Source: Sipunculus nudus
Taxonomy: Eukaryota > Annelida > Sipuncula > Golfingiida > Sipunculidae
NCBI GenBank assembly: GCA_026874595.1
Contig: CM049309.1
Coordinates: 12,326,576-12,390,575, forward strand
Reading direction: 5' to 3'
Length of the DNA stretch: 64,000 nt
Shown piece by piece: positions 27,099 to 61,900 of the stretch (its first letter is position 1; each line of letters starts with the position of its first letter). A program made the position numbers and the translations under genes. The notes beneath the pieces were generated by a model. It had not been told where the DNA came from and searched no databases. It saw only the letters and a list, made by a program, of their open reading frames with translations.

Positions 27099-28977
27099 GT
27101 ATCCGCCAAAACAGAGTTTTGCGGATACCATGTTTTCAGCCCGCCGCCGCCGCCGCGTAGGTGTCCGGGGAACTCCTCCGTAACCGCTTGGCGGAATTTT
27201 ATGAAACCCGGGATTAATTATGTTCGGGTCACATGTGAACTGCTGCGCCCCGATCCATTTGTGCGTCTGTTTTCATACATAAACCCACATATCTCGGGAA
27301 CCGTTTAACCGATCAGTAAAAATGTTTGTACAAATGTAGCCCTTGGATAGCTTTATAACATACACAAAAATGGTGGCGCAACCTGCATCCATGTTTGCAC
27401 AATGTCCATCTGTTCATCTGCTTCGGGGTAAAATCACTCATATCTCTGCAGTGGTTTGACTAATTTACCTATAATTCGGCATGCGTATACATCCTGGATA
27501 GCTTTCTTGATTTTATGATAGGTGGCGCCACCTACATTCACGTTCACGCTGCAGACATCAAAGCTCATATCTCGGGAATCGTTTGACCGATTGGGCCAAA
27601 ATTTTGCATGTGTGTGGATCTCACATAGCTCTTTATCATAGGCAAAACTGGTGGCACCACCTGCAACCATTTTTGCACAGCGTCTGTCTGTTTGTCTGCC
27701 GTGGGCTAAAATCACTCATATCTCTGTAGTGGTTTGACTTATCTGCCTAAAAATTTTGCGTGTTTATACATCTTGGATAGCTTTCTCGATTGTTTTGGCA
27801 GGTGGCGCCACCTTCATTTATGTTAATGCTGCAGACATCCAAGCTCAAATCTCAGGACTGGTTGGACATATCTCCCTGATATTTTGCATGTGTATAGATC
27901 TCATATAGCTCGTAATCGTACACAAAATTGGTGGCGCCACCTGCCACCATTTTCGCACAAGTCCTTATGTTTGTCTGCTGTGGGATAAAATCACTCATAT
28001 ACATGTAGTGGTTTGACTTTCCTGCCTAAAATTTTGCATATGTATACAACTTTGACAGCTTTCTTGATTTTATGACAGGTGGTGCCACCTACATTCTAGT
28101 TTACGCTACATACATCCAAGCTCATATCTCGGGAACCGTTTGAGGGGCCACCTGCAACCATTTTTGCACAGCGTCCGTCTGTTTGTCTGCCGTTTGCTAA
28201 AATCACTCATATCTCTGTAGTGGTTCGACTTATCTGCCTGAACATTTTGCGTGTTTATACATCGTGGATAGCTTTCTGGATTTTTTGGCAGGTGGCGCCA
28301 TCTACATTTATGTTAACGCTGCAGACATCCAAGCTCATATCTCGGGAAACTTTTGACCAATTGGGCCAAAATTTTGCATGTGTATAGATCTCACATAGCT
28401 CTTTATCATACACAAAACTGGAGGGGCCATCTGCAACCATTTTTGCACAGCGTCCGTCTGTTTGTCTGCCACGTGCTAAAATCACTCATATCTCTGTAGT
28501 GGTTCGACTTATCTGCCTAAAAATTTGGCGTGTTTATACATCTTGGATAGCTTTCTGGATTTTTTGGCAGGTGGCGCCACCTACATTTATGTGAACGCTG
28601 CAGACATTCCGGCTTATATCTCAGGACTTGTTGGATATATCCCCCTGAAATTTTGCATGTGCATAGCTGGTGGTGCCACCTGCCACCATTTTCTCACAAG
28701 TCCTTCTGTTTGTCTGCTGTGGGATAAAATCACTCGTATACATGTAGTGGTTTGACTTTTCTGCCTACAATTTTGCATATGTATACAATTTGGATAGCTT
28801 TCTGGATTTGTGGTAGATGGCGCAACCTACATAAACATTTCGGCTGCAGACATCCATGCTAATATGCAACACACCTCACTCTATTTCCCCTTGCCACTCA
28901 ATCCATGCCTCACTTCACCCGTTCAACTCTGATTTTGGCGGATACACGTAGTCGCTTGTCAACTACCCGTATTCTAG
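27099..28977 (+). mobile_element. E-family element, most complete copy
   Basis: It starts with a hairpin GTATCCGCCAAAAC / GTTTTGCGGATAC (27099-27128) and ends with the inverted copy TTTTGGCGGATAC (28933-28946), a small stem GTAGT..ACTAC and CTAG|TT at 28974-28977. The body consists of about 290-base tandem units with ctcatatctcggga, the palindrome GGTGGCGCCACC, and gtctgtttgtctgcc. Length 1.88 kb, no transposase ORF. Confidence 0.8.
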
Positions 28978-29698
28978 TTGTATTAAATTGTTTTCACTCC
29001 AATAATTTATGAACCCCAAATACATGTGATATGCTGACATTGGCCCTCAAAGCAGTGCTATAGTTGAAGACCCGTCTGATCATTAGTTATTTCATCGCCG
29101 TTCGTTGGTTGCATGGTTACTTAGTTTGGTAAATTAATGAACAGTCCATAAATTTGTTTTAGGTAATCTGAATATTTTTTTTTATTTCAGTAGCCGGTAA
29201 TAAACTTAATTCTTTAAGATGTCATTTAGGCGGATGTTTGGGGGTATGTTTGCAGGGGGGCAGGCTTTGAGTGTCAGGGGTTAGAGGGCAACCGAAGCAC
29301 TATATGATCTAATAGCGCTTAAAAGTGTGTCTGAAAAAGTCCATCAGTAATATCATTATCAATTTTTACTGAGATATATTCAATATAACAAGTAACATTA
29401 ATTTTTGAACTGGTATCATTAAAGAGATACTATGCACATACCTGAGATAGGTCTATTATTATAGACCGGTCATCTGTAATATGCATGCTGAAAAAAGCAG
29501 AGCAAATCTAATATATTGTATATCAGTGATATTGTTTATATATATTACTGTATCAGTGTATCAGTATTTAAGAAGACTCTGGTATATTACCTTATATTGC
29601 CATGCATGTTTTCCTTCCAAGCTTTTGCAAGTTCCACAATATTTCACAAGTTGCCAAGAAAAAAATTTAGAGACTGCATGTAGATTCCCTGTATTAGC

Positions 29699-29818
29699 AT
29701 CCCCAAATTATGGAACAATCTTTCATATGCTCTCCAGTCTTCGAGCAGTGTCAATGTTTTTAAACGGAACTTTAAAAACATACATGTATATGTTAAAAGA
29801 AGTTTTAAATTAACATGA
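29699..29818 (+). pseudogene. Remnant of a non-LTR retrotransposon ORF2 3' end
   Basis: One frame reads IPKLWNNLSYALQSSSSVNV then FKRNFKNIHVYVKRSF and a stop at 29816-29818. The K-LWN-L...S...FKRN-K pattern is typical of the last residues of LINE reverse-transcriptase ORFs. Upstream coding is broken by stops. Only the tail is recognisable. Confidence 0.4.
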
Positions 29819-30986
29819 CAGAGTCGTGGTTAATATATATTATTTGTAAAATTGAATCTCCTGAATGCTATTTAAAGTGTAATTGGAAGATTTCATTACT
29901 GTTATAAGCGCTTTATTAATGTAAATGTAATGTAACATTGTCCTTAAAATGAAATTAAGTTTGAAACTTATTGAAAAAAAATAGATATGGGTTGTACATA
30001 TTTCCCCATGATATGGAAGGCAACAGATAATTCTGAATCAATTTGATCGTAAAGGTTATTTTTCTTTATCTTGCAATCGTGGACATCAAAATCAGTAAAT
30101 ATATATGCATAGCATATATATGTATGAATATTCTATGATCACATACACTATATTGTGAATGTACTATGATCATGTCGTATAAGACAAGTGAATAATTTTA
30201 ATAGAGATCAAACTATACCGTTTTATCCGACGACAGGATCACGGACAGCGGGAACCAGTGTCATCCGAGTTCGCAGTGTCTGAAAGGCAAAGTGGCAGTA
30301 GTACCGAACTGTTTTTATATGATCATGGCTGGTGTTACGCCGCAAGCAAGGTTGTGAGTTTAAATTGTGACCCAACCCGCTCAATAAATTATAATCTGTT
30401 TTGCTGTTAAATTCCCTTTTAAACGTTTGAAGTTTTTCTAAAAAAATATTACAAACACCGCAGTTGTCGGCCGAATTAATAATTCTACGGGCAGACCAAC
30501 ATTTGAGTGCTGATGTGAAAAGTTTTGGGAAAGTTTATTATGTTTATACAAATATTAAACTTGGAAGAAAGAGATGTAAATCATACTTTTTATATTTTAT
30601 AGATATAACCATTCATTGGCAAGGAAAATTTTTACAATAAAAAAAAAAGTGGGGGCCGGTAAAATTCCTGGAGAGACGGTAAAATTGTTTTCCTGCCCGG
30701 TTCCCTTTGCCCGGGGAAATGTTCCTCACATTTAACCCTGTGATAGATTAAAATTAAGGAGGCTGCCAATCATTTTTGTCAATTAAGGGAAATAACAGTG
30801 TCACGCAGAGGTCCAGCTGGGGTCGTAAGGTGGCGCCATCTAGTAAGCATACAGAGAACAATAACATAACGTTCACCGCATTACTTATGGTAGCCTATCA
30901 TTTCGCATATGTATTGTAAAATGAATAATCATTAGGGGATAAGCCTATGGCATTTATTTCACAAACCTGAGGCGTCTGCTGCGAAC

Positions 30987-31004
30987 ATGATGGCAGCGAA
31001 TAAT
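30987..31004 (+). CDS. GTF2F1: GTF2F1 exon 1 (start)
   Basis: This 18 nt coding segment (MMAANN) ends at donor gtgagc in phase 0, as required by exon 2. The ATG has A at -3 (aacATGA); the second ATG, directly after it, has a G at +4. An upstream ATG at 30325 with a weak donor was rejected because it leaves phase 2. The start is inferred from phase and short length, as in human RAP74, whose VRVPK motif also lies close to the N-terminus. Confidence 0.68.
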
Positions 31005-40000: not shown

Positions 40001-43000
40001 GTATATTTATTTCCACAGAAAAACAAGCATGTGCCTCATTTCTAAATCATATTTTTTTATCATATATAACAGCTGAGCGCCGTGACCCATGGGTCCCTTG
40101 TTAATGAGACCATGTCACACCTAGGCTGTACTGAAGCCCCTCTTTAAGTCCCCATATTGACCTTTCATGTTTGAAGCGGGGCATATACTGCAGCCAGCCA
40201 GCTCTTGGGTGGCCTCAGCTGGATATAGCTATTCAACCCCAACCCCCCCCCCCTCTTGTAATTGTTTGGCCAAAAACATAACAATAAACAATAATTTTAA
40301 AAAATTATTGGTTTACAATAACAACTTTAAGAAAAATAAATGGAAAAGTAATTTTATGGTTAATGAGTAACAGGGACCTTGCAATTACTGATAGTTTATG
40401 GATCTTTCATGGATTGCTGAAAATATATTTCAAATGACACCATGCAGTCACCTTTGGGTATTTTTCAATTTCAATCATCAAATTGAAAAAAAATAATTAA
40501 ATAAAATTGTTGTTTACTATAAGGGATTATGTGAAGCAAGTTAATGATTTTGGTCATATTAAATATTCTAAATTTCCAGGTCTTTTCCAGGTGTTTAATT
40601 TGTAGGGGTTTTTTTATTACAAAATTAAAAAAAAAAATTAATTTGTCAAAAATTTTAAAAAAGTTCTCAGACAAGTGCTCATTAAAGATGTCAATATGTT
40701 TGAATAATAACATTTAGACTCATGGCTTTATCAGCTGTTACATGATACTGGTTAAATAATCAAAATTTATATTTCTGATAACTTTATTTCAGTTAATAAA
40801 ATTAACATTCCCAACTCCAGTTTGCTCCTTGTATAATATATTGGTTTCTTTTGATCTTTGGGGTTACATTTAACACATGTATTAGTTTCGTAGTAGAGAT
40901 TATTTTCTTTTTTTCTGATACAAATTCAAAATAAATTAAATTTTTAAAATGTGATAAAAAAATCAGGTCTTAAAGACAAGTTCTCATTATGATGTCTATA
41001 ATGTTAATAATTGTCATAAGTGTCTTGACAGTGATGTGAAAGTTTTCAAAAGTGAATATAATATTTTTTTTTTATAAATTAAAGCCATAAAACCAGGTAG
41101 TTACAATCATTTTTAGCTCAGCTGACTGAAAGTCATCTGAGCTATAGCGATCACTCTTTGTCCGTCGTCCGTCTGTCCGTCCGTCCGTCTGTCCGTCTGT
41201 CCGTCTGTCCGTCCGTTAACCAGGCACAAATCGTAACCGCTAGACCTAGAACCTTGTAACTTGGGATTCTGAGAGGTCCATAAAAAATCTCTTTGGAAAC
41301 CAGAAATTAGGTCTCTGTTACCCATATCCTTTGAGCTATGGGGCCCCAAAGTACCCCCCAGAATAGTAAAAAATTTCATACAAAAATTTCAATATCTCAA
41401 TAACTACATCACTGGTGGTCTTCATTTTTGGCATACATATTGATCATGAGATGTTCGATCAGTTCCTGCAGACTGGTGGCGCCACCTGTACTGTTTGATT
41501 TTTTACGATTTTTTCCTCTATTTTTGAGACCTTTGAGGATGCTGTCATCTGTTAGCGTGGCACAAATCGTAACGACTGGACCTAGAATCTTCATTTTCGA
41601 CACACTGAGAGACCTATGAAAAGTCTCCACGGAAACCAGAAATTAGGTCTCTCTTACCCATATCCTTTGAGTTAGGGGCCCAAAATTACCCCCCAGAATA
41701 GTCAAAAATTTCATACAAAAACTTCAATATCTCATTAACTACATCACTGATGGTCATGATTTTCGACATACATATTGATCATGAGATGTTTCATCAGTTT
41801 GTGCAGACTGGTGGCGCCACCTGTATTTTTCAATGTTCACGAATTGTTTTCTCCATTTTTGAGACCTTTAAGGATGTAGTTATCTGTCAACAGGGTACAA
41901 ATCGTAACGACTAGACCTAGAATCTTCGTTCTTGACACACAGGGAGACCCATGATAAGTCTCCATGGAAACCAGAAATTAGGTCTCTGTTACCCATATCC
42001 TTCGAGCTATGGGGCCCCAAAGTACCCCCCAGAATAGTAAAAAATTTCATACAAAAACTTCAATATCTCAATAACTACATCACTGATGGTCTTCATTTTT
42101 GGCATACATATTGATCATGAGATGTTCGATCAGTTCCTGCAGACTGGTGGCGCCACCTGTACTGTTTGATTTTTTAAGATTTTTTCCTCTATTTTTGAGA
42201 CCTTTGAGGATGCTGTCATCTGTTAGCGTGGCACAAATCGTAACGACTGGACCTAGAATCTTCGTTCTTGACACACAGGGAGACCCATGATAAGTCTCCA
42301 TGGAAACCTGAAATTTGGTCTCTGTTACCCATATCCTTTGAGCTATGGCACTCCAAAGTACAGCTCAGAATAATGGAAAATTTGATACAAAAGCTAAAGT
42401 AACTGAACAACTAATGCAGAGATAACCATAATTGTTTGCATGGATATTGATCATGGAGTGTTTCATAAGTTTCTGCAGACTGGTGGCACCACCTGTATTT
42501 GTTCGTTTTTTTTTTACGAAATTTTTCTGTATTTTTGAGACCTTTAAAGATATGAACATCTGTTAACAGGGCACAAATCATAAAAACTGGACCAAGAATC
42601 TTCATTCTTGACACACAGGGAGACCCATGAAAAGTCTCCATGGAAACTTGAAATTAGGTCTCTGTTACCCATATTCTTTAAGCTGTATGGGTCCAAAATA
42701 CCCCCCCCCCCCCAGAATAATGGAAAATTTGATACAAAAACTGCAGTATTTCAATAACTACAACACTGATGGTCATGATTTTCGGCATACATATTGATCA
42801 TGAGCTGTTCCATCAGTTTCTGCAGACTGGGTGTGCCACCTCTATTTTTTTTTCAAATTTTTACGAATTTTTTTCTTTTTTTTGAGACCTTTAAAAATGT
42901 GGTTATCTGTCAACAGGGTACAAATTGCAACAACTGGACCTAAAATCTTCATTCTTGTCATGCAAGGAGGCCCATGAAAGGTGCCTGTGGAAACTTAAAA

Positions 43001-46000
43001 TTAGGTCTCTGTTACCCATATCCTTCAAGCTATAGGACTCCGAAGTATCCCTCAGAATAATGGACAATTTAATACAAAAACTGAAGTATCTGAACAACTA
43101 ATGCAGAGATCACCATGATTTTTTGCATGGATATTGACCATTAAGTGTTTTTATTAGTTTCTTCAGACTGGTGGAGCCACCTGTATTTTTGTATCCACCA
43201 AAACGAAGTTTTGCGGATAATATATTTTTGACCAAGTTCCTCCGCCGCAGGGGCGTTCATTTCCAGAGAGCTCCTCGGAGACTAATGGACCTATTTTTCC
43301 CAAACTTACACCTATCATCGGGTCACATGTGAACTGGTGCCTAACCAATTTGCATTGACCTCTGACCTTTCCTCTCTATCCAGTGTCCATTTGTGGGTCT
43401 GTTTCCACTCATAAACCCTCATATCTCGGGAACCGTTTGACCGATCAGGAAATAAAATTGATACAAATGTAGCCCTTGGATTGCTTTATAACATACACAA
43501 AAAATGGTGGCGCCACCTGTAACCATGTTTGCACAGTGTCCATCTGTTCATCTGCCTTGGGTTAAAATCACTCATATCTCTGTAGTGGTTCGACATAACT
43601 GCCTAAAATTTTGCAGGTTTATACATCGTGGACAGCTTTCTTGATTTTATGACAGGTGGCGCCACCTACATTCTAGTTAACGCTGGACACATCCAAGCTC
43701 ATATCTCAGGAACCATTTGACCGATTGGGCCAAAATTGTGCATGTGTTTAGATCTCACATAGGTCTTTATCATACACAAAACTGGAGGGGTTACCTGCAA
43801 AGATTTTTGCACAGTGTTTGTCTGTTTGTCTGCCATGGGCAAAAATCGCTCATATACATGTAGTGGTTTGACTTTTCTGCCTAAAATTTTGCAGGTGTAT
43901 ACAACTAGGACAGCTTTCTGGATTTGTGGTAGGTGGCACAACCTACAAACACATTTAGGCTGCAGACATCCATGCTAATATGCAACATACCTCACTCTAT
44001 TTCCCCTTGCCACTCAATCCATGCCTCACTATCCGATTTTGGCAGATACATGTAGTCACTTGTCGGTTACCCGTATTCTAGTTTTAAAAGTTTACACATT
44101 TTTCTCTATTTTTGAGATATATAAATACAGACTAAATCTTGGCCTGTTGGTTAATCTGTTTGATGCTTCAGTTGAATGGGTATATACTACCATTCTGATG
44201 ATAAAATTTCCTTTTGCGAATCTCTTCCCAGTCAGCTGAACGTCATGACCCATGGGTCACTTGTTTAGTGTGTGGGCAGATAATGACCAGTTACAGATCG
44301 AGTTTGCGTTTTGTCCTGGTTGACCTACTTTTGACCGTTTTACAGCTCCTAAACTTAGAAAAATTCATGAAAAATAGAAATTTTCGTGACAAATACACAT
44401 GTCCAGCCGTTTTTAGCCCTCAGCTCATAGGCTGATGGGCTATTGTCGTCACCCAAGCTGTCCGTCTGTCCATCTGGCTGTCCGGTGTCTGTCCGTTCCG
44501 CTTCTGTTAACTTTTACCTTGTGAGCGGGATATCTCTAAAAGGATTCACCGTTGGAATTTTATTTCATCAGTGAAGATGTATATTGATAAAATCTTGGTC
44601 AAGTTCGAAGATGGGTGACCTTGACCCATTTTTCTACATTTTAGAGCTGATTATATCTCAGGAACCATTGTGTGGAATTTCACAAAACTTACTATGATCA
44701 TTGGGACTGATGGTCTGTATGTGCTGCACAATTTTGGTGGCGCCACCTGCAATTTCTGATTTTTAGCTCAGCTGACTGAAAGTCATCTGAGCTATAGCGA
44801 TCACTCTTTGTCCGTCGTCCGTCTGTCCGTCCGTTAACCAGGCACAAATCGTAACCACTGGACCTAGAACCTTGTAACTTGGGATTCTGAGAGGTCCATA
44901 AAAAATCTCCTTGGAAACCAGAAATTAGGTCTCTGTTACCCATATCCTTCGAGCTATGTGGCCCCAAAGTACCCCCCAGAAAAGTCAAAAATTTCATACA
45001 AAAACTTCAATATCTCATTAACTACTTGACTGATGGTCATGATTTTTGGCATACATATTGATCATGAGATGTTACATCACTTCCTGCAGACTGGTGGCGC
45101 CACCTGTATTTTTGGATTTTTTACGAATTTTTTTCTCTTTTTTTGAGACCTTTAAAAATGTGAACATCTGTTAACAAGGCACAAATCATAAAGACTGGAC
45201 ATAGAATCTTAATTCTTGACACACTGAGAGGTCCATGAAAAATCTCCTTGGAAACCAGAAATTAGGTCTCTGTTACCCATATCCTTTGAGCTATGGGGCC
45301 CCAAAGTCCCCCCCAGAATAGTAAAAAATTTCATACAAAAATTTCAATATCTCAATAACTACATCACTGATGGTCTTCATTTTTGGCATACATATTGATC
45401 ATAAATGTTCGATCAGTTCCTGCAGACTGGTGGCGCCACCTGTACTGTTTGATTTTTTACAAATTTTTCCTCTATTTTTGAGACCTTTGAGGATGCTGTC
45501 ATCTGTTAGCGTGGCACAAATCGTAACGACTGGACCTAGAATCTTCATTTTCGACACACTGAGAGACCTATGAAAAGTCTCCACGGAAACCAGAAATTAG
45601 GTCTCTGTTACCCATATCCTTGGAGCTATGGGGCCCAAAATTACCCCCCAGAATAGTCAAAAATTTCATACAAAAACTTCAATATCTCATTAACTACATC
45701 ACTGATGGTCATGATTTTCGACTTACATATTGATCATGAGATGTTTCATCAGTTTGTGCAGACTGGTGGCGCCACCTATATTTTTCAATGTTCACGAATT
45801 GTTTTCTCGATTTTTGAGACCTTTAAGGATGTAGTTATCTGTCAACAGGGTACAAATCGTAACGACTGGACCTAGAATCTTCGTTCTTGACACACAGGGA
45901 GACCCATGATAAGTCTCCATGGAAACCTGAAATTTGGTCTCTGTTACCCATATCCTTTGAGCTATGGCACTCCAAAGTACAGCTCAGAATAATGGAAAAT

Positions 46001-49000
46001 TTGATACAAAAGCTAAAGTATCTGAACAACTAATGCAGAGATAACCATAATTGTTTGCATGGATATTGATCATGGAGTGTTTCATAAGTTTCTGCAGACT
46101 GGTGGCACCACCTGTATTTGTTCGTTTTTTTTTACGAAATTTTTCTGTATTTTTGAGACCTTTAAAGATATGAACATCTGTTAACAGGGCACAAATCATA
46201 AAAACTGGACCAAGAATCTTCATTCTTGACACACAGGGAGACCCATGAAAAGTCTCCATGGAAACTTGAAATTAGGTCTCTGTTACCCATATTCTTAAAG
46301 CTGTATGGGTCCAAAATACCCCCCCCCCCAGAATAATGGAAAATTTGATACAAAAACTGCAGTATTTCAATAACTACAACACTGATGGTCATGATTTTCG
46401 GCATACATATTGATCATGAGCTGTTCCATCAGTTTCTGCAGACTGGGTGTGCCACCTCTATTTTTTTTTCAAATTTTTACGAATTTTTTTCTTTTTTTTG
46501 AGACCTTTAAAAATGTGGTTATCTGTCAACAGGGTACAAATTGCAACAACTGGACCTAAAATCTTCATTCTTGTCATGCAAGGAGGCCCATGAAAGGTGC
46601 CTGTGGAAACTTAAAATTAGGTCTCTGTTACCCATATCCTTCAAGCTATAGGACTCCGAAGTATCCCTCAGAATAATGGACAATTTGATACAAAAACTGA
46701 AGTATCTGAACAACTAATGCAGAGATCACCATGATTTTTTGCATGGATATTGACCATTAAGTGTTTTTATTAGTTTCTGCAGACTGGTGGAGCCGACTGT
46801 ATTTTTGTATCCGCCAAAACGAAGTTTTGCGGATACTATGTTTTTGACCGAGTTCCTCCGCGGCGGCGGCGTTCGTTTCCAGAGAGCTCCTCGGAGACTA
46901 ATGGACAGATTTTTCCCAAACTTACACCTATTATCGGGTCACATGTGAACTGGTGCCTAACCAATTTGCATTGACCTCTGACCTTTCCTCTCTATCCAGT
47001 GTCCATTTGTGGGTCTGTTTCCACTCATAAACCCTCATATCTCGGGAACCCTTTGATCGATCAGGAAATAAAATTCATACAAATGTAGCCCTTGGATTGC
47101 TTTATAACATACACAAAAAATGGTGGCGCCACCTGTAACCATGTTTGCACAGTGTCCATCTGTTCATCTGCCTTGGGTTAAAATCACTCATATCTCTGCA
47201 GTGAATTGACTAATTCACCTGAAATTCGTCATGTGTATACATCCAGGATAGCTTTCTTGATTTTATGACAGGTGGCGCCACCTACGTTCACGTTCACGCT
47301 GATGACATCCAAGCTTATATCTCGGGAACCCTTTGACCGATCAGGAAATAAAATTTATACAAATGTAGCCCTTTGATAGCTCTGTTACATACACAAAAAT
47401 GGTGGCGCCACCTGTAACAATGTATGCACAGCGTCTGTCTGTTAGTCTGCCGTGGCCTAAAATTACTCATTTCTCTGGTTCGACATAACTGCCTAAAATT
47501 TTGCAGGTTTATACATCGTGGACAGCTTTCTTGATTTTATGACAGGTGGCGCCACCTTCATTCTAGTTAATGCTGGACACATCCAAGCTCATATCTCAGG
47601 AACCATTTGACCGATTGGGCCAAAATTGTGCATGTGTTTAGATCTCACATAGGTCTTTATCATACACAAAACTGGAGGGGTTACCTGCAAAGATTTTTGC
47701 ACAGTGTTTGTCTGTTTGTCTGCCATGGGCAAAAATCGCTCATATACATGTAGTGGTTTGACTTTTCTGCCTAAAATTTTGCAGGTGTATACAACTAGGA
47801 CAGCTTTCTGGATTTGTGGTAGGTGGCACAACCTACATACACATTTAGGCTGCAGACATCCATGCTAATATGCAACATACCTCACTCTATTTCCCCTTGC
47901 CACTCAATCCATGCCTCACTATCCGATTTTGGCAGATACATGTAGTCACTTGTCGGTTACCCGTATTCTAGTTTTAAAAGTTTACACATTTTTCTACTAA
48001 ATCTTGGCCTGTTGGTTAATCTGTTTGATGCTTCAGTTGAATGGGTATATACTACCATTCTGATGATAAAATTTCCTTTTGCGAATCTCTTCCCAGTCAG
48101 CTGAGCGTCATGACCTATGGGTCACTTGTTTAAATTTGTGATATTTGTATATTCTGGATTCTCAACAGATTTGTTTGACTGAAACAATAAATATGAGACC
48201 TTGAGTGAAAACTTAATAATTGTATTCAAATATGATTAAAAAAATTCAATAGTTCAATAATGAAAATTAATACAAATACTAATACAGGTAAAAAGAAAGA
48301 ATTTGAGTGCAAATACTTTCAAAGTTTATTCATTAATGCATTCATGAATATATTTTATAATTTATTTTAATCATTTATTTCAATTATATTATTAAAAGAA
48401 ATCTTTTCAAATGTTACTGTTAATATTTTTCAATTAAAATTATATTTTGCCCAATAATTCCAATTAATTTTTAATGAATAGTTTAACTCTCATATCATCT
48501 GTGCTAGTGGTACTTTTGGCTATGGGCAATGTGAAATTATTGAATAACAGTTAACTCATTTGTAAAAAGCATGCATGATAATTAACATGACTTACAGTGG
48601 ACATTTATTTTCTGTTACTAGTGTTAGTGCTGTGGATTTAATTTTCACAGCATGTACACAAAAGCATTTCATCTGTTAAAATCTGAAATTGAAAACCAAT
48701 TGATAAAAAACTGTAGGTGCCATTCAATTTTTCAAGCACCATGCCTTGATTGTTATCATCAAGTCAGTGAAATGTGTGCTTGGGCAGTATTACATAACCA
48801 GCTCAACTTCTGACCTAGCCACAGCCTCTGTGATTGTCTGGGTCAGGCTGGGTCAGGCAATAATTACCAGAGAGCTCTCTCTCTCTCTCTTATCTTGCTC
48901 TCTCTCTCTCTCTCTCTCCATGACAGTCTAGCTCACCTTTTCTTGCTCTCTCTCTTTCTCTCTCTCTCTCTCTCCCATTCTCTCTCACCCCACCCATTCT

Positions 49001-49857: not shown

Positions 49858-49924
<67 letters not shown>

Positions 49925-52900
49925 TTTCTCTCTACATCCACCTAATAGCTGCCCTCACTGTTCCCTTCTCTGAGCCCCATCCCAATGTCAGCCTCAGTAA
50001 ACAAGAACAAGATGAATCAGATATATTCATACTTAAATATTTTGTATAACTATTTGTCCATAGGTACCTATGTACATGCCAGAAATTGTCAATATTGTGT
50101 AATATGTAGACATAATGGGCATCAAAATAATGTACATTGTCAAGACTGAAGAGATATTGTGTCATGCAGTAACAAATTCATAAATCCCCTCATCAGCATA
50201 GTAAATCATAACATCATATCTGTCAAATTGAAATCTTGCAGACTTCCTTACACTATAGATCCTTCAACAAATAGCCTATTCATCATATTCTACATATTCA
50301 TAAAAGACTATTTCATCAGTTCCTGCTGACTGGTGGTGCAACCTGGATATTTTTTTTTTTTAACGAACCTGTGAGCTTATGCGATGGTGCGGTGGCATCC
50401 GTCGTGCGTCGTCTGTCGTGCGTCGTCTGTACGTTAACCATAGCTATCTCAAAAACGGCAGGAGCTAGCATCACCAAATTTTTTTGCAAATAATCAGTCA
50501 ACCAAAAAACTATTTCAGATTTTTTTTTTTCTAAATGCATTTTCTTAGATTTTATAGGGAAAAAGCTAAAAAAGCTTTAAAAATCTTCTTCTCCAAAACT
50601 GTCCAGCCAAATTGTCCAGTATTTCACAGAAATGATCCATGGAACAGTCTTTCTCAAGTTTGTTCGAATGGTTCCAGTTCGGAGATTTTTGGCTGAGTTA
50701 CAGGAGGTTGAACTTTGTTAAATGTGTGAAAAAGAATATTAAAATTACAATCTCAGAAACGGCTGTAGCTATCATCACCAAATTTTATGCCAATGTTGGT
50801 CACATAGGTCATATCTGAAATTGAGGTATTGGTGGCGCCACCTGCATTGGCCTTTTTGGTACAGGGTCATCAGTGCCTGTATCACACTGAGGGCTACAAA
50901 AAACTTCTTCTCTGAAACCATTTATTACATCATGTCTCTAGACATTTAGATTTCAGGTTATCTATGGTTAATATTGACAAGAATGTTTTTTAAAAGCTTT
51001 TAAAAAATGTAGGTTTATGATTTTTAGATATTCCTCATGCCAGGCAATGTTTACAATCACACCTATACAGCTCTCTGTGGGTATTTAAAGACGGCTGTAC
51101 ATGGATTATAAATAATTGGTATCCATAGTCAAATTAATTCAAGATTTTGCCATCAGTGAGGTGTATCTCAGTGTTTTACAATTTTGCATTCAATATGCAT
51201 CTGTAATAATTTTTAGTGAACTTGTGAACTAATGCAATGGTGTGGCGGCGTTTGTCTTCTGTACGTTTACCCATACTATTTTGATAATGATTGGAGCTAG
51301 CATCATAAAATTTAATGCAAAAAAATTAGCCATCTGAAAATTTTCTTAAATTTTATAGAGAAAAAGCTAAAAAAACCTTTGAAAATCTTCTCCAAAACAC
51401 TCAAGCCAAATTGCTCAATATTTCACAGAAATAATCTTTTATACCATCTCCCTCAATTGTGTTCAGGAAGTTGAACTTAGTCATCTGTCCAAAAAAGCAT
51501 ACTAAAATGACAGTCTCAGAAACAGCCAGAGCTATCATCACCAAATTTTTTGCCAGTGTTGGTCACATGAGTTATATATGAAATTCAGGTATTGGTGGCG
51601 CCACCTGAATTGACCTATTTTTGTACGGGGGTCATTGGTCATCTGTACATTAATCCATAATTTCTCAGGAATAGCAGGAGCTACTATTCCCAGATTTTAT
51701 GCAATAATCTGTCACATATCAAATTTTGTGGGATTCAGCTTATTTTTTTGCTATCTGCATTTACTTAGATTTTATAAGGAAAAAGCTGACAATATTTTAA
51801 AAGTCGTCTTCTTGTAGACGGTCCAGCCAAATTGTTAAATATTTTACATAAATGATCCCAGAAGCAAGCCCTCTCAAGTTTGTTCAAATGGTTTGCATTT
51901 GATGAATTTTAGTAGAGTTACACAAATTTGAACAGTCATATGGCCAAGTAAGCATACTGACATAGTACTCTCAGAAATGACAGAAGCTAGCATTACCAGG
52001 TATTGTGCAAATGTTGGTCACATGACTCATATTTGAAATTGTAGATTTGGTGGTGCCACCTACATTGACCTGTTTTTTATGGGCAAAAAACCTCATAATT
52101 TTAGCCTCTTTCAGCTTAATTATGAAACTGTCAAGTTGAATTGTTCAATTTTTCAAAAGAATTATCCTAGGACATGGTTCTTTCAATCATATCAGAATAT
52201 ACTGAGTTTGTTGATTTTTGGTTGAGTTGTGAAAAGCTTAAGTTGGTTTTATGGCCATTATTATGTCTTTTTCAAACTGAGGACTGCAATAGTGTTCTTC
52301 TACAAAATTATTATTTCAATTATATCTTCTGTAACATTGCACAAAATTATTCTTAGGTGGCCTTTGTTCAAGTTTACTAGAATGATTTTTGGCAGAACTA
52401 TTTGACCTTTAACAATGAAAGTACTGCATCTTTTATTATTCTAGATATTTTGATAAAAAGTTTATGAATATGTCGGCTTGAAAAAAGAAATTTTAACCAA
52501 AGTCTTTCAGTATGTGTAAACAGATATACCAACAGGCCAAGATTGAATCTGAATCTTTAAATAGGTTGAGAAACTGCCAGCTGTTTCAGATTTGGGAACA
52601 GATCAAGAGTTCATTCAGTGCAGCCAGATATAGGTCAAGAGTTCAATCAGTGCAGCCAAGCACATGGCATGTGATCACCTCATGGGTGACATGTGAACAC
52701 CTCATGGGCACCATGTGATCACTTCATGGGTGTCAAGCCCCTCAGGGCAGGGCCCCCGCATGAGCTTATGCACTGGTGTGGCTACTATTTCAGATTTTGC
52801 AACAGGCTAGAGGTCAGTCTGGATCTATTTATAGCTTTGGCAGACTGCCAACTGTATCAGATTAGGCAACAGGTCAAGAGTTCACTCAGTGCAGCCAGGT

Positions 52901-55900
52901 ATGGGTCAGGAGTTTACTCAGTGCAGTAGCTGCATTCTATTTATAGCTTTGGCAGACTGCCAACTGTGTCAGATTATGCAACAGGTCAAGAGTTCACTCA
53001 GTGCAGCCAGGTTCAGGTCAAAAGTTCACTCAGTCTAGCCAGGTGCAGGTCATGAGTTCACCCAGTGCAGTAGTCTGAGCAAGCAATTTGTCACAGTTCA
53101 CTCGGGGCAACAGCTTTTCTCATCTAAGCCTGGTCAGCCCCATGCATCAGACTCAAGGTAAGTTTGATGTATTGGCCTAATATTTTGACCTGTCTATGTG
53201 TCTTTGATGGCTTTCTCGCTCACAAGACAGGTGTCGCCACCTACCATGACTTTTGCACACGTTTTTCTCAGGAGGGGTTTGATATATCAGTCTGAAATTG
53301 GGCGTATGTATAGTATCTCTGATAGCTTCGTTGTATACAAGACTGGTGGTGCCAGCTACAATCTTTTTAGTGTTGTGTGCACCTATGCCAGAATTTCAGC
53401 AGTGATGTTTGTGTAATTTTCTTATTCAAAATGTTTAGTACTTGCATAGTTCATATACATGAACAGTAATGGTCCAGCATTGAAGCATTATACCTGGTGT
53501 ATTTCCCAATGCACAGGTTAGCATTAGGCCTGTAGGCCTTGTTTTGTTTTTACGCCTTTTAATACCCCCATAATTGCCACTTGACAGTACTGTAAGCATT
53601 ATAAGTCAAAAACTAATGGACAGATTTCTTTCATATTATGCACATGTAGAGAGATGGGTTATGGGATTAGGTCTATTTACATTTGGGTCATGACCTTTAC
53701 CATGAGAGTGGCCTTGACCTTTAATGTGTCCATATTTGGTGAAAATCACACACCTCTTATATCTCCAGTGTTGATAGCCATATGGATTTCAAACGTGACT
53801 TATGTATGGCCCACTACAAAAGCTAGAACCCTATAGGTTCTAGGGTCATGAAGTCAAAGGTCAAGGTCACTGGACTCGCATCTTAAAAGATACTGTGGAT
53901 GCATTTTAAGCCAAACTTTTATCCCAAGTCTTGCATCTTGAATATATAGCTCAATTGCCAATAGTGGATGATCCATATCAATTTTGGGGTCACAAGGTCT
54001 AAGGTCAAGGCCAAAAGGAGCTATCTGTCAAAAAATTAGTTTCTGGATGATAATTCCTGCTTTTATTAATGTATTGATTTCAAACTTGACTTATATATGT
54101 CCCATTGAAAAAGCAAGACCCGAATTGATTTTGGGGTCATGAGGTCAAAGTTCAAGGTCACAGGACACATCTTTAAAAAGATGTGGATGCATTTTCAGCC
54201 AAACATTTCATCTCAGATCTTTCATCTTGCACATATAGTTCACCTGCCAAGAGAGGAAGAACCCTATCAATTTTGAGGTCACAAGGTCAAAGCCACAGGA
54301 GCCATCTGTCCAAAAATTAGTTTCTGGATGATAATTCCTGCTTTTATTGATGTATAGATTTCAAACTCGACTTGTATATGTCCCGTTGGAAAAGCAAGAC
54401 CGGTATTGATTTTGGGGTCATGAGGTCAAAGGTCAAGATCACAGGACACATCTTTATAAAGATTGTGGATGCATTTTCAGCCAAACATTTCATCTCAGAC
54501 ATTTCATCTTGCACATATAGTTCACCTGCCAAGAGTGGAAGACCCCTATCAATTTTGAGGTCACAAGGTCAAAGGTGAAGGTCACAGGAGCCATCTGTCC
54601 AAAAATTAGTTTCTGGATGATAATTCCTGCTTTTATTGATGTATAGATTTCAAACTTGACTTGTATATGTCCCATTGGAAAAGCAAGACCCGAATTGATT
54701 TTGGGGTCATGAGGTCAAAGGTCAAGGTCACAGGACACATCTTTAAAAAGATTGTGGATGCATTTTCAGCCAAACATTTCATCTCAGACATTTCATCTTG
54801 CACATACAGTTCCCCTGCCAATAGAGGAAGGCGCCTGTCAATTGTGAGGTCACAAGGTCAAAGGTGAAGGTCACAGGAGCCATCTGTCCAAAAATTAGTT
54901 CCCGAGATGATAATTCAAGCTTGGATTAATATATGGATTTCAAACCTGACATATATGGCCCATCAATAAATCTTGACCTCTATTTATTTATATATAAAAG
55001 TGGATGGTCAATATCAATTTTGGGGTCACAAGGTCAAAGGTCAAGGCCACAGGAGCCATCTGTCAAAAAATTAGTTTCTGGATGATAATTCCTGCTTTTA
55101 TTGATGTATAGATTTCAAACTTGACTTATATATGTCCCATTGAAAAAGCAAGACCCCAATTGATTTTGGGGTCATGAGGTCAAAGGTCAAGGTCACAGGA
55201 CCAACATCTTCAAAAAAATTGTGGATTGATAGATGGAAGAAACAATAATTGCTTGCCAAGTGTCAGTATATGCTGCTTTTAATGGGGGCCTATTTTTAAA
55301 GGGGGGGCAGTTCTATGTCTGGGGATACTCTGGCACCCGCGGTGCCAAGAAATGTCTAGTTTATCTATATTCCTGGGGTTTTTTTTATAAAAAGTCAGCT
55401 GAAAAGCATTTTGTATTGGGAAAATAAATTTTAAAGTCATTTCAAGTAGTGACCACTTTTGTGTTCAGATGGCAGCACTTGGTTTACCATTGGCAGATTG
55501 CCAGTGCCTTGATGTTGGCCATTAGCCAAGATGATGTCAGCTCTATAAATAGTTTTGGCACAGTGCCAGGATTGGAAGAAGTGCAGCCAGGTATAGGTCT
55601 AGAGTTCACTCAATGCAGTAGCTGCATTCTATTTATAGCTTTGGCAGACTGCTCACTGCATCATATTTGGCACCCAAAGTTCAGCCTGAATCAATTTATA
55701 GCTTTGGCAGACTGCCATCTGTGTCAGATTATGCAACAGGTCAAGAGTTCACTCAGTGCAGCCAGGTACATGTCAAAAGTTTACTCAGTCTAGCCAGGTG
55801 CAGGTCAAAAGTTCACTCAGTGCAGTAGCTTAAGGCAGCAATTTGTCACAGGTCACTAGGGGGCAACTGCCTTACTCACCTTAGCCTTGTCAGCCCAGTG

Positions 55901-58900
55901 CATCAAACTCTGGGGAAGTTTGATGTATTGGACTGATATTTTGACCTGTCTATGCGTCTTTGATGGTATTCTCATTTACAAGACAGGTGGTTCCACGTAC
56001 ATTGACTCTTGCCCAGTGTATGTGCCTGCTTATTTCTACAGAGGAATTTGATATATCAGCCTGAAATTGGGCATATTTATACATATTGAATAGCTTTGTC
56101 ATATTCAAGACTGGGGGTGCCACCTACATTAATTTTTGCACAATGTGTGTCCCTGCTTATTTCTCAGGAGGGGTTTGATATATCAGTCTGAAAATTGGGC
56201 ATATGTGTCTATCTCTGATAGCTACGTTGTATACAAGACTAGTGGTGCCAGCTACAATCCTTTTTGTGTTGTTTGCCCCCTTGCCAGGATTTCAGCAGTG
56301 ATATTTGTGTAATTGTTTCTTATTAAAAATGTTTAGTACTTGCATTGTTCATATACATGAAAAGTAATGGTCCAGCATTGAAGCATTATACCTGGTGTAT
56401 TTCCCAATGCACAGGTTCGCATAAGGCCTGTAGGCCTTGTTTTAATTTTTATGCATTTTAGACCTGTAACAAAACTGTCAACTGTTAACATGGCACAATT
56501 CCTAACTGCTGGACCTGGAATTTTCTAACTTGACATCAAAGGAGGTTCATAAATATATCTCTGTGGAAACCTCAAATTAGGTCTCTGTAACCCATATTCT
56601 CCGAGCCCTCAGATTAATTAAAAATTTGATTTTAATTTTATTTCAATTTCATCTTAAAATACACTTGTATTTTCAAGTTCATCTGAGCATCATGGCCCAT
56701 GGGCCACTTGTTTGTAAAATTTTTGATTCCAATATCAAGCCATCAATTCCATATACAGCATTCTAGCAAATTATTGATAAATATGAACTTTCTTTGGTAA
56801 ATATAAAATTATCTAAAAAAAACCCAGGTGGACACAGGTTGACAAAACAGGGTATAATTGATTGTTTCATTAATTAAAATTAAGTTTTTCAATTTAATTC
56901 CTAAAGGATTTACTATATTTTCTGAGTTTGCTCTGCCTCAGCATAGGTTTCTGGAGAACTCCTCCGTAACCACTTGGCAGAATATTTTAAAATTTTGAAT
57001 TTTGGTCGGGTCACATTTGAACTGCTGAACCCTCATTTTTGGCTGACCTCTGACCTTTCCTCTCTGCCCAGCGTCCATTTGTGCGTCTATTTTCACACAT
57101 AAACCCACATATCTCGAAAACCGTTTGACCGATCAGGCTAAAAATTTTGCAAAAATGTAGCACTTGAATAGCTTTATAACATGCACTTATAAATGGGGTC
57201 CCCACCTGCTACCATTTTGGCACAGTGTCCATCTATTCATCTGCCTTGGGTTATTATCACTCATATCTCTGCATTGGTTGGACTTATCTGTCTAAAACTT
57301 TTCATGTTTATACATCTTGGTTAGCTTTCTTGATTTTGTGGCAGGTGGTGCCACCTACATCTCAGGACCAGTTTGCTGTATCCTTTTGAAATTTTGCATG
57401 TGTATAGATCTTACCTAGATCTTTATCATACACAAAACTGGAGGCCCCATCTGCAACCAGTTTTGCACAGCATCTTTCTGTTTGTCTGCTGTTGGTTAAA
57501 TCACTCATATCTCAGTAGTAGTTTGACTTATCTGCCTAATATTTTGCATGTTTATACATCTTTGATAGCTTTCTTGAATTTGTGGCAGGTGGTGCCACCT
57601 ACATTTATGTTTACACTGCAGACATTCAGGCTTATATCTCAGGACTGGTTTGACATATCCCCCTGAAATTTTTCATGTTATAGACCTCACATAGCTCTGA
57701 CTCAGAAACAAAATTGGTGGCACAACCTGCCACCTTTTTGGCACAGCGTCCTTCTGTTTGTCTGCTGTGGGATAAAATCACTCATTTACAAGTAGTGGTT
57801 TGACTTATCTGCCTATAATTTGCATATGTATACAACATGGATAGCTTTCTGGATTTTGTGGTAGGTGGCGCCACCTACACACACATTTTGGCTGCAGGTA
57901 TCCATGCTAATATGCAACACATCCCCTTGCCACTCAATCCATGCATCACTTCACCCGTCCCACTCTGATTTCGGCGGATACACCTGACTACCCATATTCT
58001 AGATTATGTTATCATAACTTTTCACTCTGATCAGTAACAGTTGTTAATGTATGGGTCCAAATTTGCACTTAGTCTCTGTTGTATTTATATTTGTTTTATT
58101 AATATTTTCAAATTTATATATGTTTGAAGAATGTTTTGTAATTCATTACAATGTTTACATATTTCCTTACATCACTTGCAGCTGACATTAAATCACAAGT
58201 AAAACATAATTATAGTTTTATATATAAAATGACTTCACAGAATCAGATACTAAATTTTTCATATTATATCTTATATGTTTTGTGTTGATTTATTTCTAGA
58301 CGAGACAAAACAATGAACTACTTCTCCATCATGTTAAAAAAACGTCTGAAAGGAGAGGAGGATGCTGACATTGATGGAGAGGAAGGAGGCGAGAAGAAGA
58401 AGAAGAAAGGCAAGAAAAAAAGAGACTTTGTAAGTCAGAAGGTTATCACATCATAATCATCAGTGTTATTGCCTGAGTCTGTTTCAGAGGAGCATGATTT
58501 CATGTAATCATTATTGTGAATGTCAGCTTGAAGGATGTGAAGAACATGCTTTCAGCACTGTTTCCTTAGCATCCCACCACTAGGATAAGCAATCCTTGCA
58601 AGAGAAGATAACTCCAGATATTTTACAGATCTCTGCCAAATCAAGTATGTGTATATAGAAGGGTATGATCTTTTTATGCCCCCGCCACAAAGTGGCCGGG
58701 GCATATAGTTTTACCAATGTCCGTTCTTCTGTCCTTCTGTCCTTCCGTCATTCCGAAATCAAACAGTTGTACAGACTTTTTTTCGCAATGCCTGCAGATA
58801 TTGGCCTGATTTTTGGGTGTGTGGGCAGATATTGACCAGTTACAGATCGAGTTCATGTTTCGTCCCAGTTGACCGACTTTTGACAGTTTTACGGCTCCTG

Positions 58901-61900
58901 AACATAGAAAATTTCACGAAAAATATAAATTTTCATGACAAGTGCACATGTTTGGACTTTTTTTTTGCAGTGCCTGCAGATACGGACCTGATTTTGGTGT
59001 GTTGGCAGATAATGACCAGTTACAGATCGAGTTCTTGTTTTGTCCCAGTTGTCCTACTTTTGACCATTTGACTGCTCCTGAACATAGAAACTTTCATGAA
59101 AAAATAGAAATTTTCATAACAAATGCATATGTACGGACTTTTTTTCCGCAATGCCTGCAGATACCGCCCTGATTTTTTATGTGTGGGCAGATAATGACCA
59201 GTTACAGATGGAGTTCGCGTTTCGTCTCGGTTGACCTACTTTTGATTGTTTTTTATGGCTCCTAAACATAGAAAATTTCATGAAAAATATAAATTTTCAT
59301 GATAAATGTACATGTACAGCTGTTTCTAGCCCTCAGCTCATAGGCTGATGGGTTATTGTCGTCACCCAAGCTGTCCGTCTATCGGTCCGTTCATCTTTCT
59401 GTCCGGTGTCCGTCTGTTCCGCTTCTGTTAACTTTTACCTTGTGAGCGGGATATCTCTAAAAGGATTCACCGTTGGAATTTTATTTCATCAGTGAAGATG
59501 TACATAGATAAAATCTCGGTCAAGTTCGAAGATGGGTGACCTTGACCCATTTTTCCACATTTTAGAGCTGATTATAGAAAAACACTCAGAAGCTTATATC
59601 TCAGGAACCATTGTGTGGATTTTCACAAAACTTACTATGATCATTGGGACTGATGGTCTGTATGTGCTGCACAATTTTGGTGGCGCCACCTGCAATTTCT
59701 GATTTTTTAATGAAATTTTATCGGATTTTCAATTTTGGCCTTTTGTGCAGGATATCTCTAAAGGTATTCAACATAGGAACTTCATTACTTCAGTGCTATT
59801 GCATTATATTAACAAAATCTTGGTCAAGTTCAAAGGTGGGTGGTCTTGACCTACTTTTCAAGGTCACAGAGATTAGAATAGAAAAAAAACTTATTTCTCA
59901 GGAAGCATTTGATGGATTGTTATGAAACATGGTACATACCTCTCCAATGTAAATTTATAACTGATTATCAGCTTTTGCTAATATTCTAGTTTCGCAATGC
60001 AATGCTTACAAATACTGGCCTAATGTTTGGTCTGTGGGCGCATAATGACCACTTACAGATCGAGTTCGCGTTTCGTCCCAGTTGACCTATTTTTGACCAT
60101 ATGACAGATCCTGAACATAGAAAATTTCATGAAAGACAGAAATGTTCATGAAAAATGCACAAGTATGGAACTTTTTTCACAATGCGTGCAGATACTGGCC
60201 TGATTTTTGGTGTGTTGCTTGATAATGACCCTAACAGATTGAGTTTGCATTTTGCCCTTGATGACCTACTTTTGACCTTACAACACCTCCTGAACTTAAA
60301 AAATTTTACATAATTTAACAAATGTTTCTAATTTGCCCCAGGCGGGGGCATTCGTGTCGTTCCGACACATCTAGTTTAGTTGGGTAATCCTGGACCTTGA
60401 ATTGATCCATATGGGTGAAAATTTCACAAATCATTTGATATCTTAAGAGTAAGTGGATGGGTTTCCCAAAAGTGTGTATGACCAGAGATCTTGGATCAAA
60501 CATATCTTGTCATTGGTTTTACCCAAAAAATTACCTTGTACAAAAAGACTTGTGAAGCCACCTTCAGTAGTTTCTGTTTTCGCACAGTTTCACTCCACAT
60601 ATAATTGACAACTTATGTAACAAATAAAAATAAAATATGAATTTCCTTTCAAATAAACATGTGCTTAAATGTGGGTCAGAAGTCAGAGCCTCATCATGAA
60701 TAGCTCTGTTTAATAAAGATATGTGGTGCCACCTGTGCAGCATGTCCATATGAATATGTGGGACTTTATAAAGGGAGTGTATAGATATAACTCCTATAAA
60801 GCCTAAGGATAATGCTGCATCTGTGATGGCAAGATGATTTTCTTGTCATCATCCATGACAGCTTCAGATAGACAGGATGTAACCATTGTTTGTGTGTCTG
60901 CTTCAGATGCTCACAGACATGGATGAGTGGGCTGTGCTGTCTGATGAGGACAGTGATGGGGATGGAGAAGATGATGATGGTGGGTCACCTGTACTCTTTA
61001 TTCATTCCTTATCAACCTCCCTTTTGGTGACAATGAAAAAATATATAAACTTTGAAGAAAACTTATCATTCTACTATAAATCACTGTTCTGGGCATCACC
61101 GATTCAGGTCAATCCTCTGGGTACTGTTTCATAATTAATGTTCAGTTTGTCCCCAAACTCTGTCAGCAAATAGATTTGTACCATGGGCATTTCTTTAGAC
61201 CTCTCCCAGGTCACACCCCTGTAGCCCTATCGAATTTCAATTGATTCCCCCCCCCCCCCCATCATATCAAGGGCCTGCCACCTTCCAACAAACCTGACAA
61301 AAGCACTTTGCGGCATTGTTTTCCATATCAGGGTCACTTATGAAGCAAGAGAGGTCTAGTTTTCTACTGTAGGTAGCATTGTAACAAGTTGTAACAGAGA
61401 TCACCTCACACATGAATTAGCAGGGCTAAGGTCCGCTAGTCATATTAGTAACCCAAATGTGACATGAAGGTTTTGATTAGGAACTCCACAGTCTATATTT
61501 TACAATATTTTGATGTATTCCCATGATTTGACAGGTTGAATGTATCACTGCATTAGTAGCTGCCTGATTTAGATGATGATATTTGCAGTGTGTACAAGCG
61601 AGTATAAAACATTTCTCCTTCTTGGAGCATTCATTTGTTCTTGCCTTGAATGCATTAAATGGGTTTGAATATTGTGGAATATAAATCTATTAATATTTTC
61701 TACATTTTAAATTGCAGACTTGTAATGCTTATTTTAATTCTGACTTTTGTTTTGCTGTCTGACTTTCTGATATCTTTGACAGAATAAGAATATTTTATCG
61801 GGATCATATGACTTCTTTGTGCATACATAATTGTTTGTGATGGACTGTTTTATTTATTAATCATTGATTAATCAGTTTAATTGATTATGAAAGAAAAGGA

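Follow-up and report, generated by a model that had tools for sequence, protein, structure and literature searches.

A CpG-decaying palindrome as the probable inherited landmark of a satellite-like core superfamily dispersed by HINE transposons in Sipunculus nudus

In this study, we analysed a 64,000-nt window of the Sipunculus nudus genome (C4:12326576-12390575; positions are those of the window unless a contig or locus is named), in which one 12-base palindrome, GGTGGCGCCACC, recurs in tandem-repeat families of different appearance, two of which are carried inside non-autonomous, Helentron-type transposons known as HINEs. Our analyses suggested that the palindrome is an inherited landmark of an old satellite-like core superfamily, dispersed by HINEs and decaying mainly at its CpG, and we put the probability of this reading at roughly 0.8.

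Palindrome-bearing arrays and HINEs at the locus

Twenty-one exact copies of the palindrome are present in the window, one at each of the positions that an earlier note on this DNA had listed as at least 20 copies, and there are none beyond them; 35 sites match with at most one mismatch and 43 with at most two. The one-base variants mentioned in that note amount to 14 sites, 8 of which are C-to-T or G-to-A changes at the central CpG. The base after an exact copy is T in all 21 cases, and the TG or TA described earlier follows in 19 (TG 13, TA 6, TT 2); the copy at 41475..41486, taken with its next T, reads AGGTGGCGCCACC on the minus strand. The arrays that hold these copies, and the two complete elements among them, are as follows.

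27254..28982, plus strand: A array whose ~278-bp unit is a dimer holding two palindromes; exact at 27521, 27801, 27930 and 28570
41115..44266, plus strand: HINE 1, a complete Helentron-type non-autonomous element with subterminal inverted repeat (subTIR) and inverted repeat, GTCC microsatellite, E array, A array, 3' subTIR at 44230, palindrome at 44246 and the end CTTGTTT
41115..41143, plus strand: left module of HINE 1, 5' subTIR (GCTCAGCTGACT from 41116), then inverted repeat
41159..41213, plus strand: left module of HINE 1, GTCC-type microsatellite
41215..43190, plus strand: E array of HINE 1, 336-bp units; exact at 41475, 41810 and 42146
43418..43981, plus strand: A array of HINE 1; exact at 43506 and 43655
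44230..44266, plus strand: right module of HINE 1, 3' subTIR (one mismatch), palindrome TGACCCATGGGTCA and terminus; one base off the generic right-end pattern
44267..44764, plus strand: G unit; exact at 44736, then TTTTT and the left end of HINE 2
44765..48131, plus strand: HINE 2, complete; about 90% identical to HINE 1 over 2.9 kb
44833..46806, plus strand: E array of HINE 2; exact at 45093, 45429 and 45765
47034..47871, plus strand: A array of HINE 2; exact at 47122, 47271, 47401 and 47545
50422..52077, plus strand: F units; exact at 50831 and 51594, CpG-decayed at 52049
55914..56460, plus strand: A3 units, 127-bp period; CpG-decayed or diverged versions of the motif
57074..57913, plus strand: A array; exact at 57864, CpG-decayed at 57344 and 57588
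59173..59707, plus strand: G unit; exact at 59679

All HINE parts were found in both HINE 1 and HINE 2. Each element begins after TTTTT with AGCTCAGCTGACT and its inverted copy, continues through a GTCC-type microsatellite (41159-41213 in HINE 1), the 336-bp array and the ~278-bp dimer array, and closes with AGTCAGCTGAGC (one mismatch in HINE 1), the right-end palindrome TGACCCATGGGTCA (one mismatch in HINE 2) and CTTGTTT. The subTIRs measure at least 11 bp at both ends, with GCTCAGCTGACT at 41116 and 44766 and its reverse complement at 48095 (exact, 12/12) and 44230 (one mismatch), and the inverted repeat beside the 5' subTIR has an 11-bp arm with one mismatch. A third complete HINE was identified on the minus strand of L011, one of 20 random 10-kb loci, with its left end at 3784 and its right-end palindrome at 361. 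Carriage of the A and E arrays inside HINEs is thus directly visible, and families F, G and those met only on contig C1 may be carried in the same way.

HINE ends are numerous beyond these elements. The generic right end CAGCTGAGCNNNNTGACCCATGGGTCNCTTGTT has 7,029 plus 6,971, that is 14,000, exact copies in the assembly (1,426,538,692 bases, 153 contigs) against 0 for the control, a count that spans several subfamilies of which only some are known to carry the palindrome, and 12 HINE-type right ends lie in 264 kb. As a single strand, the right end (41 nt) folds no better than its shuffles (z -0.76), so the hairpin is treated here as a feature of sequence only. The left-end search, which itself requires TTT before the match, gave nine left ends with one mismatch (seven in the window, one each in L011 and L023), all after TTTTT; 36414, the complement of 36386, and weak two-mismatch matches in L010 and L012 were set aside. 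Further hairpins resembling the left end follow TT at 22435, 63418, L021 5686 and L023 8100, and one at 36010 follows no T. Among the 801-base loci drawn from C1, a left end is present in L041, L065, L072 and L084 and a right end in L057 and L067. In four cases a new HINE left end sits in the T-tract just after a palindrome (36386 and 44765 in the window; L036 and L086 on C1), a placement that explains part of the mixing of families.

Elements of this kind are already known, and the present one is a new member, a HINE with satellite-like arrays. According to the part of the text available for the oyster paper, Cg_HINE of the Pacific oyster has the same 5' subTIR, nearby complementary inverted repeat, GTCY/GTCC microsatellite, 3' subTIR and 3' palindrome, also carries satellite-like tandem arrays, two of them consecutive in some elements, and includes one monomer cluster unlike its group save for two conserved segments (PMC7492417). 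That partial text mentions neither GGTGGCGCCACC nor CTCF, and the likeness is one of description. Likewise, the DINE-1/HINE/Helentron superfamily, as portrayed in excerpts of its description, shares 11-15 bp subTIRs, an inverted repeat by the 5' subTIR, a 3' stem-loop, a microsatellite, the lack of coding capacity and perhaps T-rich insertion sites (PMC4067079), to which the Sipunculus elements add long arrays of two families that hold a conserved palindrome resembling the CTCF core.

Abundance and decay of the palindrome across the genome

Genome-wide, 111,729 exact copies of GGTGGCGCCACC were counted, against 14 for the reversed word used as control and 5.0 expected from base composition (order 0), which is about 22,000 times the expectation; this supplies the count that the earlier note had called for. 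In addition, the 20 random loci hold 12 exact copies, confined to 3 of them. Taken together, the excess over expectation and the copies in random loci place the recurrence far beyond chance and make it a property of the whole genome.

When one mismatch is allowed the count rises to 218,178 (control 575), which leaves 106,449 one-mismatch sites. The CpG-transition form GGTGGTGCCACC, on either strand and hence in two variants, makes up 45,683 of these, and the other 34 one-mismatch variants together make up 60,766, so that a CpG transition is about 12.8-fold commoner per variant. It is by far the most frequent single change in the palindrome, and this excess is as would be expected of a methylated CpG. 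CpG observed/expected is 0.75 in the random loci.

A shared core behind different-looking families

The earlier note had regarded the families as unrelated, which proved mostly wrong. With the motif masked and 140-base flanks compared, 41 of the 43 window sites with at most two mismatches fell into one single-linkage cluster, the two outside it being 30829 and 60722. Inspection by eye of the C1 sites revealed further families that bridge others and a common upstream string ending in ...GATC.TGGATAG..TTGTCA....AGAAACT. The C1 sample comprises 60 exact sites among the matches listed, within 0.12-0.94 and 3.06-3.70 Mb of that contig.

A model blind to the motif was trained on the 64 bp preceding the palindrome in 36 stretches (16 from the window, 20 from C1) and searched against the window and against the 20 random loci, the latter having had no part in training. 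At E<=0.01, 24 matches were obtained in the random loci, and at the expected place the palindrome had 0, 1, 2, 3 and 4 mismatches in 11, 7, 3, 2 and 1 cases, respectively. The 41 matches in the window had 0-4 mismatches in 18, 10, 3, 7 and 2 cases and 7 in one, whereas random 34-mers reached at most two mismatches in only 77 of 19,567. Of the 60 C1 sites, 57 showed the core in register at E<=1, 54 at E<=0.1 and 48 at E<=0.01; outside the training set the figures were 37/40 at E<=1 and 30/40 at E<=0.01. Since a model blind to the motif recovers it in register, we conclude that the palindrome is inherited together with its core, as judged from these alignments. The base after the palindrome is T in 71 of 71 detected units (TG or TA in 65), and the conserved unit is therefore better read as 13 bases.

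At three of the 60 C1 sites (L041, L066 and L078) the model gave no match. L041 and L078 are by eye truncated A units. L066 (C1 ~3.0611 Mb) holds an exact palindrome in unrelated sequence outside the repeat core, the only such case among the sampled sites, and is a candidate independent host site.

Family profile tests (anchored, gapped) gave a more uneven picture. A1-A3 and A2-A3 are clearly homologous, and A3-E upstream and A1-G downstream scored above all 152 controls; an ungapped, in-register comparison was uninformative because spacing varies. Several results weigh against descent from one core. In the same tests, A2-G upstream scored 0.0, and A2-E, A3-F, A3-G and E-F upstream and A1-A2 downstream did no better than off-register controls. 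The 24 random-locus matches are not independent, as they come from 4 of the 20 loci, most of them from L011, and some fall in families already used for training; the 60 C1 sites were drawn from two stretches of one chromosome. The unrelated surroundings of the palindrome in L066 point the same way, as do three results on conservation given in the next section: the way half of the family representatives were found, the other 12-bp windows that equal the motif in A1 and E, and the L010 family. On balance, shared descent, one of the causes that the earlier note had offered, accounts for most of the recurrence, given the motif-blind recovery and an upstream identity above controls, while some family pairs fail the stricter tests; the units that the note had proposed to align are homologous in their core but not over their full length. 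Its statement that each tandem unit holds one palindrome does not apply to the ~278-bp arrays, which are dimers with two palindromes each, spaced ~129 and ~149 bp apart (27521, 27650, 27801, 27930).

Conservation of the palindrome relative to its flanks

Among 14 family representatives, the upstream 58 bases had a mean identity of 0.467, compared with 0.369 on average (maximum 0.397) for 40 shuffles and 0.363 (maximum 0.408) for 40 random sets of 58-mers. The palindrome itself had an identity of 0.919, being exact in 11 of the 14 with T next in 13 of the 14, a figure inflated by the fact that 7 of the 14 were found via an exact motif match. This gap between families, flanks of ~47% against a palindrome of ~92%, suggests that something in the active source elements has probably kept the palindrome.

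Within families, non-CpG columns of the motif had identities of 0.918, 0.948 and 0.924 in A1, A2 and E, against 0.828, 0.816 and 0.844 elsewhere, and other 12-bp windows equalled or exceeded the motif in 12/118 (A1), 0/116 (A2) and 41/288 (E) cases. The palindrome CpG was kept in 46 of 95 units, versus 76 of 221 for the other CpGs of the same units (Fisher p 0.023). Individual copies thus appear weakly protected at most, and retention would act between source lineages. A family in L010 (4185-4804) forms an 87-bp tandem unit (CGTGATTCCACCT type) that is almost nothing but the core; its match to the motif-blind model is weak (E 0.26 to 1.5), and its consensus at the place of the palindrome, CGTGATTCCACC, has kept CCACCT and lost the left half.

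Proposed origin and spread

We propose that the core unit is ~60 bp long, roughly AAAATTTTGCATGTNTATAGATCNTGGATAGCTTTGTCAN..ACT, followed by GGTGGCGCCACC and then by T. A and E units are multiplied in tandem inside HINEs, and rolling-circle transposition, a mechanism taken from the family, would scatter them. Recurrence of the palindrome in different-looking families would then result from descent from one core together with nested HINEs that bring several arrays side by side, and after insertion the copies decay largely at the central CpG to GGTGGTGCCACC. The palindrome may be a putative protein-binding site used by the element, as its retention between families suggests; the mode of transposition, the binding and any benefit to element or host are conjectural parts of this scheme.

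Candidate roles of the palindrome

Among single candidates for the role of the palindrome, the CTCF core appears to be the best. The minus-strand consensus of the main families, C or T followed by AGGTGGCGCC, resembles the part of the CTCF motif that we assume is read by zinc fingers (ZF) 3 to 6, and the minus strand of the exact 12-mer with its T matches what we take to be the CTCF core consensus, AG[GA][GT]GGC[GA]C; the likeness is one of sequence alone. The asymmetry around the palindrome fits as well, in that all 71 detected units have the A of AGG and 65 have C or T before it. One clear CTCF orthologue is encoded on contig C11 (58% over ZF1-11 in a 989-aa open frame; the next best match reaches 41%), its best PDB match is CTCF, and the helix residues -1, 2, 3 and 6 of ZF3, ZF4 and ZF5 are the same as in vertebrate CTCF. 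The canonical CTCF word CCASYAGRKGGCRC has 3,379 copies versus 45 for its reverse, a 75-fold excess in which repeat and non-repeat copies are pooled. Papers that name CTCF and hold AGGTGGCGC include one with a guide oligo directed at a human CTCF site and one on a rice gene; the oligo, whose target lies upstream of EGR1, contains CTAGGTGGCGC (PMC6344568). Precedents are also on record, since CTCF in mammalian transposable elements (TEs) and the Helitron ISX in Drosophila miranda are summarised in one paper, as far as its available text goes, as motifs spread genome-wide by mobile elements (PMC6598467). There binding is reported, whereas the Sipunculus palindrome offers a resemblance. In excerpts on ctenophores, a loop-anchor motif bound by CTEP1/2 is likewise GC-rich and linked to TE-associated three-dimensional architecture in a non-vertebrate, but the proteins are others, binding was demonstrated there by DAP-seq (DNA affinity purification sequencing), and the parallel is one of description only (PMC12221973). 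The same excerpts describe CTCF as conserved across bilaterians, and two papers, in the portions available, regard its mode of action in the genomes of invertebrates as an open question (PMC13317027, PMC12221973). Against a CTCF site stand the missing CCA half, absent at the expected place in the aligned HINE unit families, a ZF6 in which three of the four contact residues are not those of vertebrates (only -1 is kept), a palindromic left half that CTCF does not need, and the loss of CpG from copies. The CCA half is contacted by ZF7, whose contact residues are kept at two of four positions here (changes S to T and V to I). That the palindrome is a CTCF site and that HINEs gained from CTCF binding, through germ-line open chromatin or loop anchors, and so spread it over 100,000 candidate sites, is therefore a tentative reading against which the odds lie; the fuller version, in which HINEs seeded more than 100,000 CTCF-core-like sites that deep divergence of the families has left in place because the element profits from CTCF binding, is slightly less probable again.

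Another factor might be responsible instead, either a homodimer that needs two-fold symmetry or a C2H2 protein restricted to the lineage, perhaps a host repressor encoded in a zinc-finger cluster on contig C16, and we consider this possible, though doubtful. All 12 bases are symmetric, both halves are kept in most family representatives, the centre TGGCGCCA is presumably E2F-like, and many C2H2 matches fall on C16 among the matches listed; pure symmetry does not explain why the L010 family keeps the right half and the T better than the left half, nor why T is fixed on one side only. That the palindrome has no function, and diverged slowly or was simply sampled as the search word, is somewhat unlikely: conservation within A1 and E is unexceptional and the CpG decays (46/95 kept against 76/221 at other CpGs), but the motif-blind search still recovers the motif in most core units, while flanks compared between families lie only somewhat above the noise floor of alignment. 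A role at the level of DNA, such as unequal crossing-over or strand exchange that grows or homogenises arrays, as proposed for CENP-B-box-like satellite motifs, or rolling-circle replication, seems distinctly unlikely. One motif per monomer across arrays with periods of 87, ~140 and 336 bp would suit it, and motifs that may drive monomer replacement are discussed in the accessible portion of the oyster HINE paper (PMC7492417), but a perfect, loopless 12-bp palindrome gives a 4-bp hairpin at best. Least probable by far is that unrelated families gained the same palindrome independently, by convergence or by insertion of a short cassette; downstream sequence and unit length do differ strongly and some family pairs are hard to align, but upstream homology is in register and the motif-blind recovery disfavours it. 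Descent from a common core, with a palindrome probably kept by something in the source elements, fits this evidence best.

Some origins were tried and rejected. A coding origin finds no footing, as only three stop-to-stop frames of at least 130 aa occur in the window, with no Pfam match at E<=0.01, and the domain matches lie left of the arrays; in the case of known RNAs, nothing in the window matched Rfam with a score that reached the gathering threshold. ACTGGTGGCGCCACCTG was not found in viral contigs, and in the literature searched the 12-mer GGTGGCGCCACC occurred in a single paper, on a chitinase, as judged by its title and the start of its abstract.

Orientation, neighbouring gene and other repeats

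Matches to the CTCF fingers number 306, and among those listed many lie on contig C16, mostly at 38-62 Mb; C16 may hold a C2H2 zinc-finger cluster, possibly of TE-silencing factors.

The orientation of HINEs, given here as a lead, appears locally ordered in part. In right-end subfamily 1 (675 + 712 copies; pairs from 100 places listed on C1, 0.33-76.3 Mb), 41 of 44 pairs under 0.3 Mb lay on the same strand (0 of 20,000 shuffles were as high), but at 0.6-1.0 Mb this fell to 9 of 38, a tendency to flip. A second repeat type, used for comparison (2,265 copies, 100 listed), gave 20/39 under 0.3 Mb and 44/76 at 0.6-1.0 Mb, and more than half of the pairs also agreed for CTCF words, which served as the first control (28/35 under 0.1 Mb and 26/41 at 0.1-0.3 Mb). 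Right-end subfamily 2 (424 + 400 copies, 88 listed on C1) lacked this ordering, with 12 of its 29 pairs under 0.3 Mb sharing a strand. Pairs between subfamilies 1 and 2 agreed in 43/71 cases under 0.3 Mb and 15/18 under 0.1 Mb, and pairs between subfamily 1 and the unrelated repeat in 16/22 under 0.1 Mb. That all HINEs follow the direction of replication was not supported, since subfamily 2 is unordered and the control words and the unrelated repeat also agree; local duplication of one HINE subfamily likely lies behind the co-orientation. Additionally, all 41 HINE right ends listed for C1 64 kb-1.17 Mb, which belong to several variants, lie on the minus strand, and 37 C1 loci (L029-L065) have core units on the minus strand, L051 on both.

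In the window, HINE ends lie on the minus strand left of 22.4 kb and on the plus strand right of 27 kb; core matches (E<=0.05) are plus in 46 of 47, the exception being at 24348. The unmasked GC skew changes from -0.038 left of 24.2 kb to +0.042 right of it, and HINEs have negative GC skew on their own strand. The switch in HINE orientation (22.4-27.3 kb) adjoins a DUF7044-like exon on the minus strand. Minus-strand exons at 12220-12474, 15249-15548 and 23965-24204 belong to one probable gene, with DUF7043 (1.5e-07), DUF7042 (6e-07) and a sub-threshold match to DUF7044 (0.0087); a minus-strand frame at 5300-5740 is perhaps part of the same gene, being similar by eye, and has no Pfam match. Two other tandem arrays, at 53781-55226 (~289 bp) and 62238-63262 (~145 bp), contain repeats of AGGTCA type, for example AGGTCAAAGGTCAAGGTCA in the first; we take these to resemble nuclear-receptor half sites, and no palindrome site within two mismatches was found in either array.

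Implications

Counts of words of this kind in the Sipunculus nudus genome are dominated by repeats and call for caution. The interesting part of the finding is the reason for the retention of the palindrome, together with its likeness to the CTCF core. If the CTCF reading is true, rolling-circle transposons would rank as the chief origin of candidate architectural sites in non-vertebrates. A pool of TE-borne sites with a likeness to just part of the CTCF motif would reveal how much of that motif is required by the CTCF of an invertebrate. The Sipunculus elements offer a concrete, testable case of a mobile-element superfamily that would have spread a zinc-finger-like site of 13 bp across an animal genome of 1.4 Gb.

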